Assembly (NCBI GenBank): GCA_016932935.1 | Contig: JAFGBX010000441.1 | Coordinates: forward strand, 1 to 32,296 | Direction: 5' to 3' | Source of the DNA: Promethearchaeota archaeon | GTDB lineage: Archaea > Asgardarchaeota > Lokiarchaeia > Sigyniarchaeales > Sigyniarchaeaceae | DNA length: 32,296 bases | In this document: piece by piece, positions 8,491 through 32,296 of the stretch | Numbering within the stretch: the first letter of the stretch is position 1 | Layout: each line of letters begins with the position of its first letter | Translations under genes and position numbers: made by a program | The notes under the pieces: generated by a model | What the model was told of the DNA's origin: nothing | The model's input: the letters and a program-made list of their open reading frames with translations, nothing else | Database searches by the model: none

Positions 8491-9234
8491 CTATCCTCCC
8501 TGGTCGGTGTTCTCCGGGTGCTTGCGCTTCCCGATGCCGAGCGCCTCCCGCATGTCGTAGTTTTCGAGCGAGAAGTCGAGCATGCCGTGGCACACGGGGC
8601 ATATCTGGTTCGAGGGCGTCTGGAGCCATGACGCGAGGCACAAGAAGTGGCCAACACGCCGGCAGTGCGGGCACATGAGCACCTGGCCCTCTTGCTTCTT
8701 CTTGTCGATCTTCTGGAAGCAGACCATGCACGTTGCCTGGTCGGGGGCCTCGTCGGTGTCGGGGTTGTACACGGGCACCCGGTCCTCCAAGGATAGCGGG
8801 TTCCGCGCTTGCACGCGCTGGGCGAGCAACTCCTTGTACCGGTCGACGATGACCGCTTTTTCCTCGTCACTCCCCGCGATTTCCGTTCCCTTGTCGGCCG
8901 CCATCACGAGAGAATACATCTCCTCGGGGAGCTTTCCCATGACCCGGTAGGCTAGTGCCATATTCAGCCAGACCTGGCCGTCGTCGGCTTGTGCCTCGAT
9001 CATCTTCTTGTAGCACTCGATCTCGCCGTCGTAGTCGCCGGTCTCCCGGTACCCCTTTGCGAGCTCGAACCAGAGGCTCGCGTTCTCGGGCACGATGGCG
9101 GTCGCCTCCTTCAAGAGCCGGATCGCCTCGTCGTACTCCCCGACCTCGTACGCATCAGCGGCTTTCATCATCAGCACGTTCGCCCGAACCTGCTTCTGGA
9201 TGTCCTCGGGCATCTCCTGCTTGTTGTCCGCCAT
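8491..9234 (-). CDS. TPR protein with C-terminal RING/PHD-like C4HC3 zinc finger
   Basis: 247 residues from an ATG with AAGGAG upstream. Residues about 15-135 contain three TPR-like helical pairs (AADAYEVGEYDEAIRLLKEA, LWFELAKGYRETGDYDGEIE, VWLNMALAYRVMGKLPEEMY). After a linker comes C-x2-C-x14-C-x2-C-x4-H-x2-C-x12-C-x2-C. The second half (H-F-L-C-L-A-S-W-L then C-P-V-C) has the H-x2-C-L-x2-W-L...C-P-x-C signature of RING fingers, while the ligand order C4HC3 fits PHD/RINGv. Such fingers act in ubiquitin transfer or as protein-binding modules. A TPR-plus-finger layout suggests a substrate-binding adaptor. No E1, E2 or ubiquitin gene is in the window. Confidence 0.75.
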   Translation of the reverse strand: MADNKQEMPEDIQKQVRANVLMMKAADAYEVGEYDEAIRLLKEATAIVPENASLWFELAKGYRETGDYDGEIECYKKMIEAQADDGQVWLNMALAYRVMGKLPEEMYSLVMAADKGTEIAGSDEEKAVIVDRYKELLAQRVQARNPLSLEDRVPVYNPDTDEAPDQATCMVCFQKIDKKKQEGQVLMCPHCRRVGHFLCLASWLQTPSNQICPVCHGMLDFSLENYDMREALGIGKRKHPENTDQGG

Positions 9235-25605: not shown

Positions 25606-27189
25606 TCACGTGCCGTCGGCTTGGACCGGCGCCCCCTCCTTCTTCTTCGGGGGCGGTGGCGGCGGCAACTTCAAGAAGTAGGCGGGGTGGTAGCCCTTCT
25701 CCTCCACGCGTTTTGCTTCGGTTTTCTCGTAACTTCGTTTCTTGGCGAAGGAGAGTTTCTTCACGAGGGGGAGCCCTGGCTGGACCTCATCGATTGGTCT
25801 TTTCTCGATCAAGCCCGATTGCACCGCCGCGTCGAACAGCTCCTTCCCCGCACTTGTGCGAATGATGACCGTGTTCCAGCCGTCCGGGGATCCGATCGAA
25901 CCGACGGATACGTCTGCCAGCTCGGAGGTCAGGTCGTGGCAGCAATGGCAGCTGAGCCGGGCGAGTTTGGTCACGTCCTTCATGCTTGCCGACTTCGGCT
26001 CCCCGCTCGTGGGGTACGCGAAGAACTGCCCCTCCTTGATGTTCATCTTCCTCACCTGGTCGAGCGGGGTCTCGAACGTGCCCTCGCACAGCTGCTTGAT
26101 GCCGGCGTGGGTGAAGGACTCCATGCAGAAGATGCCGATGCGGTACTTGATGTTGCCGACGTCGACAGTCCCCGACGGATAGACCTCGGCCTTGCGGAGG
26201 GCTTGCATCATGCACGGGGTGCCGACGACGGCGATAGCCCTTTCCCGCTTCACGATCCTCAGCAGCCTCATGCTGGGCGTGTTCACGTACTTCGTCCCCG
26301 CGGCCCGAACGACGTCGGGAACGCCCTTCATGACGATGGCCTCGGGCTTCCACGGGACACCGCCCGCCCTCGCCGCGCCGATCGCGGCCTGGATCGCCTT
26401 CGACTCGAACGCGTGGATGAGCAAGGCCGATGACACCCCGCCGTCTTGCACGAGCGGCCGCAAGTCCTCCCGGGTGATCCTGGCACACCATGCCTCGGTG
26501 ATCACGCCCGTCTTGAGGTCTTCGGGGGTGGCCGGCTTGTCCATCATCGCCCACTCCATGGCCTTTCTCGGGAGCAGCGCCCGCGGGCACGCGGTGAGGC
26601 ACAGGCCGCAGCGGATGCACCTGTCCATGTCTATCGTGACCTTGCCGTCGTCCACCGAGATGCAATCGACGGGGCACACGGCCTGGCACGCGCCGCAACC
26701 GCTGCATGCCTTGCCTTCGTCGACCACCTTCACTGGCACGTAGACGGGCTGGATCTTGCTGGAATCTTCGGTGACAAAAGTGAACGAAACTGCATCCGGC
26801 CCGTCGAGATCGCACCGGACAAATCCCTCGAAGGCGAGTTGGAACGCGGCAGCGACGGCGGCCTTGCCAGGGATGCCGAGCGACTGCCCTTTCTGGGCCA
26901 AACCCTCGAGGTTCACGCCGCAGCCAGCGGCCTCTATCTCGCGCAATATCGCCGCTTTGCGCACTTCCTCGTCGAGCAAGGTTCCGAGCATGTCGTCGTA
27001 CTCGTTGCCATCGAGAGCGCCTGCTTTCTCTATGTCCGCCTTCGCGTCGACGAGGCAGCGGATTCGGAACGATCTCGCCGCGTGCAGCAACAACGGAAGC
27101 TGCCTCACGTGCTCGGGGTGCATCTCCTCCGCGACCATTTCGGTGGCCATCCACTTCATGGATCCGTTATCTGTCCTGGTTCTTATCAT
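25606..27189 (-). CDS. FrhB/FdhB-like flavoprotein with two [4Fe-4S] clusters
   Basis: 527 residues from the ATG at 27189; an in-frame ATG at 27159 is possible. An N-terminal region of about 150 residues is unassigned. A two-cluster ferredoxin follows, with Cys162, 165, 168, 172 and Cys191, 194, 197, 201. The FrhB-type domain from about 225 onward includes WCARITREDLRPLVQDGGVS, VVGTPCMMQALRKAE, the metal motif CHCCHDLTSELADVSVGSIG, and WNTVIIRT. FrhB-family proteins use FAD to pass electrons between iron-sulfur partners and F420 or other acceptors. The tail is six prolines and a charged end. It lies 85 bp after mvhD and is probably the electron-exchange partner of HdrA/MvhD. The acceptor is not determined. 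Confidence 0.88.
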   Translation of the reverse strand: MIRTRTDNGSMKWMATEMVAEEMHPEHVRQLPLLLHAARSFRIRCLVDAKADIEKAGALDGNEYDDMLGTLLDEEVRKAAILREIEAAGCGVNLEGLAQKGQSLGIPGKAAVAAAFQLAFEGFVRCDLDGPDAVSFTFVTEDSSKIQPVYVPVKVVDEGKACSGCGACQAVCPVDCISVDDGKVTIDMDRCIRCGLCLTACPRALLPRKAMEWAMMDKPATPEDLKTGVITEAWCARITREDLRPLVQDGGVSSALLIHAFESKAIQAAIGAARAGGVPWKPEAIVMKGVPDVVRAAGTKYVNTPSMRLLRIVKRERAIAVVGTPCMMQALRKAEVYPSGTVDVGNIKYRIGIFCMESFTHAGIKQLCEGTFETPLDQVRKMNIKEGQFFAYPTSGEPKSASMKDVTKLARLSCHCCHDLTSELADVSVGSIGSPDGWNTVIIRTSAGKELFDAAVQSGLIEKRPIDEVQPGLPLVKKLSFAKKRSYEKTEAKRVEEKGYHPAYFLKLPPPPPPKKKEGAPVQADGT

Positions 27190-27191
27190 CC

Positions 27192-27208
27192 CATCGCTCG
27201 CAGCGATG
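27192..27208 (-). repeat. Hairpin just before the frhB-like start
   Basis: CATCGC-TGCGA-GCGATG on the minus strand: a 6-bp stem with a 5-nt loop. It ends 3 bp before the ATG at 27189 and could affect translation initiation or form part of the SECIS region. Confidence 0.45.
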
Positions 27209-27210
27209 CG

Positions 27211-27252
27211 CCATCATTACCCCGTCGGCTTTGGTCAGGGTAAATCACGCGG
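27211..27252 (-). promoter_or_regulatory. Candidate SECIS element in the mvhD 3' untranslated region
   Basis: Downstream of the mvhD stop (27275-27277), on the minus strand, UGAU (27244-27247) and UGAU (27213-27216) flank a hairpin (27217-27243). The stem pairs UUACCC with GGGUAA, then U.G and G-C, an A.A mismatch and C-G. The apical loop of seven is CAAAGCC. The two UGAU segments face each other as U.U, G.A, A.G, U.U, the arrangement of the eukaryotic SECIS quartet. Below it a G.G mismatch and three G-C pairs continue. The location fits archaeal and eukaryotic SECIS elements, which sit in 3' UTRs. The fold was done by hand. Confidence 0.6.
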
Positions 27253-27274
27253 CTGGGGGATCGGGTGTGTCTCG

Positions 27275-27724
27275 TCATATCACGACATTCAAGCCCCGCG
27301 CCTTGTCCATTTTCAAGGGATTGGGGGGCAGGGCCTTTATCTTTGCCACGAACTCGTTGGTTGCCCGCATGAACCGGTCGATCTCCGCCGCCGACATGAA
27401 GAAGATGCCCACGCGATCGGGGTCGAAGCCAGACCGCTGGAGCATGAACTTCACCGCGTTGACGTGCCGCTCCGCGACGAGGTTTCCCGTCTCGAAGTCG
27501 CATTCCCCCTTGTGGCACGCGTAGATACCGACGCCATCGGCGCCGTCTCGCAATGCCTGGAGGATGTCCGAAACGTCAACGCGCCCCGTGCATTTCACCC
27601 TCACGAGGTATATCACGGGTTCGTACTGGTTCCTCGAAACGCCGACCAGATCCCCTGCGGAATAGCCTCACTTCTCGCAGCAGTATATAATTACTTTCCT
27701 GGGTTCTTGTTTGCTTCCTTCCAT
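27275..27724 (-). CDS. mvhD: Selenocysteine-containing MvhD/VhuD-type hydrogenase iron-sulfur subunit
   Basis: 149 residues from the ATG at 27724; ATGs at 27742 and 27745 are alternatives. Codon 19 (27668-27670) is an in-frame UGA. Reading through it gives YCCEKUGYSAGDLVGVSRNQ, which aligns with the MvhD motif F-C-C-x-W-C-S-Y-A-G-A-D-L-A-G, so the UGA stands for the second cysteine of a C-x-x-C pair. After it come the family features RVKCTGRVDVSDILQAL, ADGVGIYACHKGECDFETGN and GIFFMSAAEIDRF. MvhD links HdrA electronically to a hydrogenase or similar partner. Without read-through, only a 113-residue fragment missing its cluster-binding N-terminus would be called. The stop codon is itself UGA. 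Confidence 0.88.
27668..27670 (-). other. In-frame UGA read as selenocysteine in MvhD (codon 19)
   Basis: It replaces the conserved second Cys of C-x-x-C. Flanking coding sequence on both sides matches the family without any frameshift. Confidence 0.85.
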
Positions 27725-27803: not shown

Positions 27804-29870
27804 CTACGATTTGCAGCCGGGCTGCATCGGTGCGGGCGCGTCGGTGGATTCTGGTGTGTCTTTGGGAGTCCGTGCCATGCTTGCTTCCCCGCCCTGCTTG
27901 ATTATGGCGCAGACCTTGCCCGCGAGCTGGCCGTCGCGGTAGTACCGGAGCTCGATGGCCCTCGCGGGACAAGAGGATATGCAGATGCCGCAACCCTTGC
28001 AGTTGAGGTCGTTGACCTCCGCGACGTTGCTCTCGGGGTTCACCTGTATCGCGTTGTAGTTGCAAGACTTCTCGCAGCGGTGGCACGCGATGCATCGGCC
28101 TGGATCGACGATGGCAGTGACGAGCTCCTTGGCATAGATGCCGGCGGTGACGATGTTCGCAGCGGCCGCGGCAGCACCGAGCGCAGACGAGACCGAGTAA
28201 GGAACGTTCTTCGGCCCGGCGGCACAACCCGCGATGAAGATGCCTGGGTTCTTGGTCTCCTGCGGGCTCAAGCACTGGTGCGTCTCCTTGAGGAACCCTC
28301 CTGGGGACTTGTCCAGGCCTAGCACCGCTGCGATCTCGTTCGTACCAACGGACGGGATCATTCCGGCCGAGAGCACGAGCAAGTCTACCGAGACCTCTTG
28401 CACGGTGCCATCGAGCGTGTTCTCGAACGTCAACATGATGTTGCCGGTCGCGGGATCCTCCTTGATGTCGCCCGGGATGCCTCGCACGAACAAGACGCCC
28501 TTCTCGCGGATGCGACGGTAGTATTCCTCGTTGTGCTTGTCCCAGCACCGCATGTCCATGTAGAAGATCATGACCTCGACCCCGTCGATCTCCTGCTTGA
28601 GCAGCTGGGCGTTCTTCAAGGCGAGGTTGCAGCACACCGCCGAGCAGTACGCGTTGGCATTCTCGTGCATGCTGCGGGAGCCGACGCACTGGACCATGGC
28701 AACACGCCGCGGGATCTTCTTGTCCGATATGCGGAGCACGTGCCCGTGGGTGGCGCCGACGGGCGAGAGCATGCGTTCGAGTTCCATCTGGGTGATCACG
28801 TTCTGGAACCGGCCATAGCCGTAGGAACCGTGTTGCAGCACGGGATACTCGTCCCAGCCGGTTGCCACGATGATCGCCCCCGCGATGACGGTCTCGAGCG
28901 TCTCCTTGTCGTCGTAGTTGATCGCGCCCCGCTGGCATGTCTTCGCACATAGGCCGCAGCTCATGCACGCCTCCTTGTCGATCAAGGCGACCTTCGGAAC
29001 GGCCTGGGAGAACGGGATGTAGATCGCCTTCCGCATGCCGATACCCCGGTTGAACCCGTCGGGAACCTCGATGGGGCACTTGGCAATGCAAGCGCCGCAG
29101 CCCGTGCAGAGTTTCGGATCCACGTAGCGGGGTTTTTGCTTGATCGTGACCGCGTAGTTGCCCGTGATGCCTGAGACCGCCGAGACCTCGGCGTTCGTGA
29201 AGAGCTTGATGTTGGGGTGCTTCGCGGCCTTGACCATGATCGGCGCGACGACTCAGATGGCGCAGTCGTCCGTCGGGAAGACGCGGTCGAGCTGGGCCAT
29301 GCGGCCTCCGATGGTCGGCTCCTTCTCCACGAGGTAGACCATGATCCCCTGGTTCGCCAGGTTGATCGCCGCGTTCATCCCCGAGATGCCAGCCCCAACC
29401 ACGAGCACGGATTTGGTCACATCTACTTCCTTGCGTGGCACGTCCTCCAGGGACATCGCGCGGTAGACTCCACCCGCGACAAGCGCCTTTGCCTTTTCAG
29501 TCGCCCGTTCCTTGTCCTTGCTGTGGACGAACGAGCAGTGCTCTCGCAAGTTGACCATTTCGAAGTAGTACGGCGAGAGCCCGGCGTCCACGAGCAGCTC
29601 CCGGTAGGTGGGCTCGTGGATCTTTGGCGTGCAGGCGGCCACGACCACGCGGTTCACTCCGAGTTCCTGGATGTCCCGCTTGATGATCTGCTGGCCGGGG
29701 TCGGAGCAAAAGAAAGTGAAGGTGCGCGCGACGAGCACGTTCGGCAAGATCTCCGAAAAAGCCCTCACTCCCTCGGCATCGACGAACTGGCCTATGTTTA
29801 CTCCTCATTGGCACACGTATACGCCGATGTTCACAGACTCCCTTGGTTTAATGGGTGTTGTATCACTCAT
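27804..29870 (-). CDS. hdrA: Heterodisulfide reductase subunit A-like protein with two selenocysteines
   Basis: 688 residues from the ATG at 29870 to a UAG at 27804, if two UGA codons (22 and 206) are read as Sec. Without this the gene appears as two ORFs plus an orphan leader. The start region reads VYVCQUGVNIGQFVD, where family members have C-H-C-G-x-N-I. CSDPGQ, AACTPKIHEP and LREHCSFVH follow, all typical. The FAD motif GAGISG is at 159-164 with TIGGRMAQLDRVFP. DDCAIUVVAPIM replaces the family D-C-A-x-C-I-L. Four iron-sulfur motifs follow: Cys255/258/261/265, then CMSCGLCAKTC, CIACHRCEKSC and CKGCGICISSC. HdrA is the bifurcating flavoprotein core of Hdr complexes. HdrB and HdrC are not in the window. 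Confidence 0.9.
29253..29255 (-). other. In-frame UGA read as selenocysteine in HdrA (codon 206)
   Basis: It stands at the second Cys position of the family segment D-C-x-x-C. HdrA homology continues without a frameshift directly on both sides (FPTDDCAI before, VVAPIMVKAAKHPN after). Confidence 0.87.
29805..29807 (-). other. In-frame UGA read as selenocysteine in HdrA (codon 22)
   Basis: It stands at the second Cys of the N-terminal C-x-C-G-x-N-I motif: VYVCQ before, GVNIGQFVD after. HdrA-like coding resumes in the same frame. Confidence 0.82.
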
Positions 29871-31654: not shown

Positions 31655-32296
31655 ATGTCCCGTGAATTGAAGCTCTTCGTCGAGACGAAAGAGAACGTCG
31701 GCGACGACATCTACATTTCTAGTATTTCCGCAGAATCGCTTGGAGTGCGTGATGGAGACCTCGTCCAGGTGAGCATTCCAGAGGAGGGGTTCAACACGTC
31801 GCTCGTCGTGCACATCAACGAGAGCTTGTTCGACTTTGTCGTTCAGATCGACGAGAACCTGCCGGAGATACTGGGGTTCAAGTCTATGGAGCTAACGGTC
31901 ACGCCAGCCTCCCCCGGCACCCTCCCCGCTAGGCCTTCCAAGCCCGGTGCAGGGCCGGGCAGGCCTGTACCGCCGCCACGGGCTCCCGGAATGGCACCAC
32001 CCGTGCCGAGCCCGCCTGGCATGGTGGGGCCCCCACCAGGCCCTGGAGTGCCAGCCGTGCCGAGGATGCCGTCAATGCCTGGCGTGCCCGCCGTTCCCAG
32101 CGTGCCGGCCATGCCGGGGCTGCCGGCCATCCCGAAACCACCCTCTGTGCCCGGGGTGCCCGCCGTGCCGGCGGTTCCAAAACCACCGGCGATCCCGAGG
32201 CCCCCGTCCATGGCACCAGCGGCGCCGGCGATCCCGAGACCCCCGTCCATGGCACCAGCGGCGCCGGCGATCCCGAGGCCCCCGTCCATGGCACCA
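31655..32296 (+). CDS. Proline-rich repeat protein with N-terminal beta-barrel-like domain (3' end outside window)
   Basis: 214 residues are visible and the frame is open at the right edge. Residues 1-80 form a strand-rich unit (LKLFVETKENVGDDIYISSI, GVRDGDLVQVSIPE, FKSMELTVTP). The G-V-R-x-G-D-x-V pattern is common in double-psi or AbrB-like barrels. From about residue 85 the sequence is Pro/Ala/Gly/Val-rich with P-A-V-P, P-A-I-P and R-P-P-S-M-A-P units, low complexity and probably disordered. The last part is a 13-residue tandem repeat. Poly-proline segments of this kind can bind profilin, SH3-like or GYF domains; a profilin link is speculation. No membrane segment or signal peptide is seen. 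Confidence 0.7.
   Translation, partial: MSRELKLFVETKENVGDDIYISSISAESLGVRDGDLVQVSIPEEGFNTSLVVHINESLFDFVVQIDENLPEILGFKSMELTVTPASPGTLPARPSKPGAGPGRPVPPPRAPGMAPPVPSPPGMVGPPPGPGVPAVPRMPSMPGVPAVPSVPAMPGLPAIPKPPSVPGVPAVPAVPKPPAIPRPPSMAPAAPAIPRPPSMAPAAPAIPRPPSMAP
32186..32296 (+). repeat. 39-bp tandem repeat coding PAIPRPPSMAPAA
   Basis: Copies start at 32186, 32225 and 32264; the third is cut by the window edge. They differ by one synonymous base (AGG/AGA). Near identity implies recent expansion or gene conversion. Imprecise older units precede them. Confidence 0.85.

Follow-up and report, generated by a model that had tools for sequence, protein, structure and literature searches.

The window, by which we mean the whole 32,296-nucleotide stretch of DNA that was analysed, comes from a Sigynarchaeota metagenome-assembled genome (MAG; 81.9% complete, 5.1 Mb, 476 contigs) and carries on its minus strand an hdrA gene with two in-frame UGA codons, followed by frhD, two hairpins and an F420 dehydrogenase-like gene:

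27804..29870, minus strand: hdrA, 688 residues when UGA is read through twice (predicted Sec22 and Sec206), TAG stop
29805..29807, minus strand: UGA codon 22 of hdrA, second Cys/Sec position of C-x-U-G-x-N-I
29253..29255, minus strand: UGA codon 206 of hdrA, the U of C-x-x-U
27275..27724, minus strand: frhD/mvhD/vhuD, in-frame UGA at codon 19, UGA terminator at 27277-27275
27668..27670, minus strand: UGA codon 19 of frhD (CCEKU), aligned with the residue X (taken as Sec) of VhuD chain 9sfi_K
27210..27253, minus strand: SECIS-like hairpin with a GUGA core, an upper stem of ~8 bp, AAA in the apical loop and UGA on the 3' side
27192..27208, minus strand: second hairpin directly 3' of the SECIS, present in four Sigynarchaeota family members, with one compensatory pair
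25606..27189, minus strand: FrhB/FdhB-like F420 dehydrogenase subunit with a ferredoxin domain, the next gene after frhD

The minus-strand frame running from 29870 to 27804 comprises 689 codons and is interrupted only by the UGAs of codons 22 and 206, exactly as given, coordinates included, in the initial annotation, which had pointed out neither the in-frame UGA codon of frhD nor the SECIS. Solved HdrA chains aligned unbroken to the read-through protein over residues 14-658 (9sfi, E=1e-220; 5odc, E=9e-200) and NCBIfam HdrA models matched it as well, bearing out the earlier claim that HdrA homology continues past both UGAs. Pfam matches in the read-through protein were to Fer4 and Pyr_redox, the top matches of a structure search were HdrA without exception, and the N-terminal Fe-S, FAD/thioredoxin-reductase, inserted ferredoxin and C-terminal ferredoxin domains were found in the order that characterizes HdrA. 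Judged from its sequence, the window protein is an HdrA of the electron-bifurcation kind, with bifurcation activity as the predicted function. The Cys-containing HdrA of the HdrABC-MvhAGD complex (5odc) shares its fold and 47% identity with it in the structure search; in contrast to the window HdrA, that protein is all-Cys, fed by the Mvh hydrogenase and associated with HdrBC. No hdrB, hdrC or hydrogenase genes were recognised among the window genes scanned. The FrhB/FdhB-like gene is likely the electron-donor module, and its proximity suggests F420H2 as the electron donor. Continuing the FrhB-like frame past its UGA (25608-25606) joined it to an unrelated NAD(P)HX repair enzyme, so that this UGA is an ordinary stop.

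The closest matches among genome contigs were Sigynarchaeum springense (L010, 88%) and Sigynarchaeota archaeon SQRJ_79 (L009, 81%), followed by Lokiarchaeota at ~60%. Both TGA codons of hdrA recur in these two congeners (L010/L144 and L009/L145) and, since the latter were assembled separately, do not stem from sequencing error. When compared to L010, dN/dS amounted to 0.035 over codons 23-205 and 0.10 over codons 207-660; the corresponding values relative to L009 were 0.052 and 0.093. The hdrA frame is thus under purifying selection on either side of codon 206. Over the 21 codons ahead of UGA22, where sites are few, dN/dS was 0.27 (L010) and 0.58 (L009). That the window derives from a fragmented MAG might have argued for a pseudogene or for an assembly or sequencing error, but this explanation is already refuted by conservation, the codons being found again in two congeners of 82-88% protein identity and in ~70 other Asgard sequences, and dN/dS being well under 1 both before and after codon 206; we accord it practically no weight.

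Alignment of 92 HdrA homologues, most of them from Asgard genomes and 77 of which contain Sec, revealed U or C exclusively in columns 22 and 206, in agreement with the assignment of both UGAs to conserved HdrA cysteines by the initial annotation. Column 22 is U in 71 and Cys in 21 of the 92 sequences, and the same-family sequence L146 combines TGT (Cys) at codon 22 with TGA at codon 206. Cys in homologues, the mark of an in-frame UGA in a selenoprotein, is thus seen at both codons and, because the two UGAs fall on invariant Cys columns, they are not there by chance. Across the alignment, U was counted 71 times at column 22, 7 at 55, 17 at 80, 77 at 206, 3 at 305 and 5 at 308, and all six columns are Cys in other homologues. 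Columns 305 and 308 are located in the inserted ferredoxin domain; neither the C-terminal ferredoxin domain nor the flavin-domain cysteines 395-414 include a Sec column, and C20 and C203, invariant in the 92 homologues, are never encoded by UGA. Outside the six Cys columns there were two stray UGAs, in one sequence each. The one at column 660 in L143 is probably its stop; the one at column 169 in L079 stands where others have Ile/Leu, in an HdrA with three further UGAs, and reflects either an error or odd decoding.

Every one of the 77 Sec-containing HdrA carries U206. The most frequent pattern was 22+206 (n=48), ahead of 22+80+206 (n=10), 206 alone (n=5) and 22+55+80+206 (n=4), with fewer representatives of the others. 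Two Sec in a single HdrA, one of them in the N-terminal motif, had been regarded as unusual by the initial annotation; with U22 in 71 of the 77 Asgard Sec-HdrA, double Sec is on the contrary their usual state. UGA occurs at 22, 55, 80 and 206 together in the L120, L122, L125 and L130 genomes, and in L122 additionally at 308; a SECIS-like motif was noted ~520 bases downstream of these four-UGA genes. On a tree built without the UGA columns (a quick FastTree, from which change counts do not separate gain from loss), column 206 required a single change, whereas columns 22, 55, 80 and 308 required 6, 5, 7 and 4, respectively. The latter columns have thus changed repeatedly. The genome of the window harbors HdrA paralogues with UGA at 22, 80 and 206 (L056, and L060, which is truncated by a contig end) as well as Cys-only paralogues.

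The predicted hairpin at 27253-27210 would provide the SECIS expected in the transcript of a selenoprotein gene. With its GUGA / UGA core and the loop ACCAAAGCCGA, it has the features of eSECIS type I, for which the relevant passages on Asgard archaea describe a [A/G]UGA_[G/A]A core, an A-rich apical loop and no apical ministem (PMC11227280). Relative to shuffles, the fold scored z = -2.2 for the 51-base stretch around the element and z = -2.6 for the 44-base element itself. The SECIS is found in the same place in four family members, with double-sided changes in 7/8 of the upper-stem pairs; over the whole structure, 8 pairs displayed such changes vs 2.8 in shuffles, and 0/500 shuffles reached 8. 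In L146, the upper stem is off by one in the alignment and the fold is no better than shuffles, which makes the case slightly less strong. A SECIS scan, with dinucleotide shuffles and Cys-HdrA loci as controls, yielded a median of 17 at Sec-HdrA loci (n=74), as opposed to 6 at Cys-HdrA loci (n=13; P = 5e-5) and 8 in shuffles (n=740; P = 4e-18); the scan rewards pairing and serves for comparison only, and the P values are too small because the loci are related. The intergenic stretch between hdrA and frhD was scanned without revealing a SECIS and did not fold better than shuffles. The hairpin behind frhD is presumed to serve both genes. No SECIS was found in the scan behind the three-UGA paralogue L056, and an Rfam search of the window returned no RNA family.

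Much of the machinery for Sec synthesis and insertion was identified in the genome. It comprises a tRNA-Sec (C359:8310-8398, 66 bits, anticodon read as TCA), a SelD (L035, G000:C155:8836-9729) which has an in-frame UGA of its own in the UxxK motif known from this protein (PMC9312934), a PSTK-like protein scoring under the curated cut-off and only the C-terminal end of SepSecS, where the contig with the tRNA-Sec breaks off. Of the components that the initial annotation had proposed to look for, EFSec/SelB was the one not found in this 81.9%-complete MAG, including with a congener's protein as the query; it is present in close relatives (G001, G002 and G004, of the same genus or the same family), and we take its absence as MAG incompleteness. 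Most SelB candidates in the genome proved to be EF-Tu relatives such as EF-1alpha and aIF2-gamma; L049, an EF1A/SelB-like protein nearest to 3wnb, was not accepted as EFSec. The Pfam model euk_SelB_III had no match anywhere and was uninformative. The SepSecS candidate L039 (G000:C283:3752-4501) turned out to be SepCysS, the presence of which indicates that Sec decoding may occur alongside tRNA-dependent synthesis of Cys.

The lack of EFSec in the MAG would be in line with ordinary UGA suppression, whereby Cys, Trp or another residue would be inserted and selenium would play no part. We consider this highly improbable in view of the tRNA-Sec, the UGA-containing SelD and the covarying SECIS, of the EFSec of the congeners, and of the use of UGA for normal termination in other genes of the window and at the end of frhD. 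Genome-wide reassignment of UGA was ruled out, as UGA ends other window genes and frhD itself. The Cys columns, the Sec machinery and the hairpin with its compensatory changes instead support the Sec reading already put forward in the initial annotation and, with a probability of about 85%, the locus would represent a functional hdrA-frhD selenoprotein pair, in which UGA codons 22 and 206 of HdrA and 19 of FrhD are decoded as Sec with the help of one SECIS. This element, lying behind frhD and ~2.5 kb from the first UGA, would direct Sec insertion at all three codons.

A second UGA is common in the frhD genes of relatives; the window's frhD has Cys at that site. The stop UGA of frhD (27277-27275) precedes the SECIS core by 27 bases, in the same gene in which the UGA of codon 19 would be read as Sec, and Sec and stop UGAs may be separated by their distance to the SECIS. 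The corresponding end of frhD is TAG in the congeners L009/L010 and UGA in the same-family L146.

As to the role of the Sec residues in HdrA, residue 206 corresponds, in a gapless alignment, to Cys197 of 5odc and to an unknown residue X (taken as Sec) in 9sfi, and the 5odc equivalents of residues 22, 55 and 80 are Cys13, Cys46 and Cys71. Cys197 of one subunit serves as a ligand of the N-terminal [4Fe-4S] cluster in the partner subunit, in the ferredoxin branch (PMC9012536). Clusters HA3, HA5 and HA6 form the low-potential path, and HA3 acts as a moving shuttle cluster (PMC6019823, PMC12350162); by our own reading of these texts, HA3 is the N-terminal cluster, one figure legend terming it C-terminal. 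The N-domain cysteines 20, 22, 55 and 80 are U or C throughout the 92 sequences. In an AlphaFold model of moderate quality (pLDDT 67), C20 and C22 follow strand 1, C55 strand 2 and C80 strand 3 of the N-domain, a predicted placement compatible with a common site. Furthermore, fused and split HdrA proteins of the same genome distribute these elements over two parts, one with the N-domain cysteines and without 203/206, the other with 203/206 and without the N-domain. Taken together, the equivalence of 206 to Cys197, the placement of the N-domain cysteines and the complementarity of the fused and split proteins lead us to infer a single inter-subunit [4Fe-4S] cluster held by 22, 55, 80 and 206 but not by 20. 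Cys20, equally conserved and never UGA, is presumed to be the non-ligand.

Sec would thus have repeatedly replaced the ligands of a single low-potential cluster (HA3), and the inserted ferredoxin domain with columns 305/308 comes next along the low-potential branch. We regard it as fairly probable that Asgard HdrA recruited Sec in a stepwise manner to the ligands of one low-potential [4Fe-4S] cluster (206 always, 22 usually, 55/80 sometimes, and all four in L120, L122, L125 and L130, resulting in an all-selenolate cluster), with further Sec only at 305/308. Selenolate ligands might tune the potential of the cluster, the rate of electron transfer, or ligand exchange as the HdrA arm moves. Both Sec residues of the window HdrA also belong to C-x-U or C-x-x-U motifs, as is typical of redox-active selenoproteins, HdrA is listed under CxxU (PMC9312934), and C20 and C203 never vary, which would be expected if Sec22 were no ligand and the CxU/CxxU motifs formed redox-active selenenylsulfide pairs close to the flavin or to the cluster. 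Residue 206, however, aligns to a known cluster ligand, UGA also occurs at 55 and 80, where there is no adjacent Cys, and at 305/308, within a ferredoxin motif, and the fused and split HdrA proteins separate the N-domain cysteines from 203/206; selenenylsulfide pairs are thus an unlikely account of the two Sec, and recruitment to cluster ligands is preferred.

Sec-HdrA with CxxU, Sec-FrhD and their shared SECIS have already been described in the pertinent sections of earlier reports (PMC11227280, PMC9312934, PMC11097638). The Sec-HdrA of Methanococcales (HdrAU, of which kind 9sfi_A appears to be) resembles the window protein in its domain order and in having Sec (X) in C-x-x-U at the equivalent of 206, and its partner gene vhuD has Sec positions, as does the window's frhD. 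9sfi_A differs in having Cys and not Sec at the equivalents of 22, 55 and 80; in the relevant passages of two studies, the methanogen SECIS structure is unlike the Asgard one (PMC9499178, PMC11227280). The Asgard HdrA/FrhD selenoproteins of Huang et al. 2024 (PMC11227280) also resemble the present locus, the passages concerned describing neighbouring hdrA and frhD genes, one eSECIS-like element behind frhD with an [A/G]UGA_GA core and an A-rich apical loop, and Sec machinery of the archaeal/eukaryotic type, all as in the window; these passages do not state the number or identity of the HdrA Sec residues. A 2026 review speaks, in its relevant sections, of multiple Sec in FrhD/VhuD and not in HdrA (PMC13188914).

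What the present analysis would add to known Sec-HdrA is the identification of the Sec sites as cluster ligands. A mapping of Sec sites onto the ligands of one cluster, including the case of all four, was not found in the searchable literature, of which Mariotti et al. 2016 does not form part. The latter authors reportedly described multiple Sec in three Lokiarchaeota families, and multi-Sec HdrA may be among them. Should the low-potential cluster and those that follow it indeed be bound through the Sec sites, selenium would be tied to one defined step, the movement of the low-potential electron, a link testable by single-residue swaps in a culturable methanogen. Asgard HdrA would then offer a natural series of iron-sulfur clusters graded by their number of Sec ligands, from one to four, along with cases in which six or seven Sec codons, spread over two genes, appear to depend on one SECIS.

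Two further observations concern other parts of the window. The frame at 8491-9234 (minus strand) encodes TPR repeats and, C-terminally, a RING-like zinc finger with a weak score in Pfam, an arrangement reminiscent of eukaryotes, and the window edge (32186-32296) consists of 2.8 copies of a 39-base tandem repeat unit with 97% matches.
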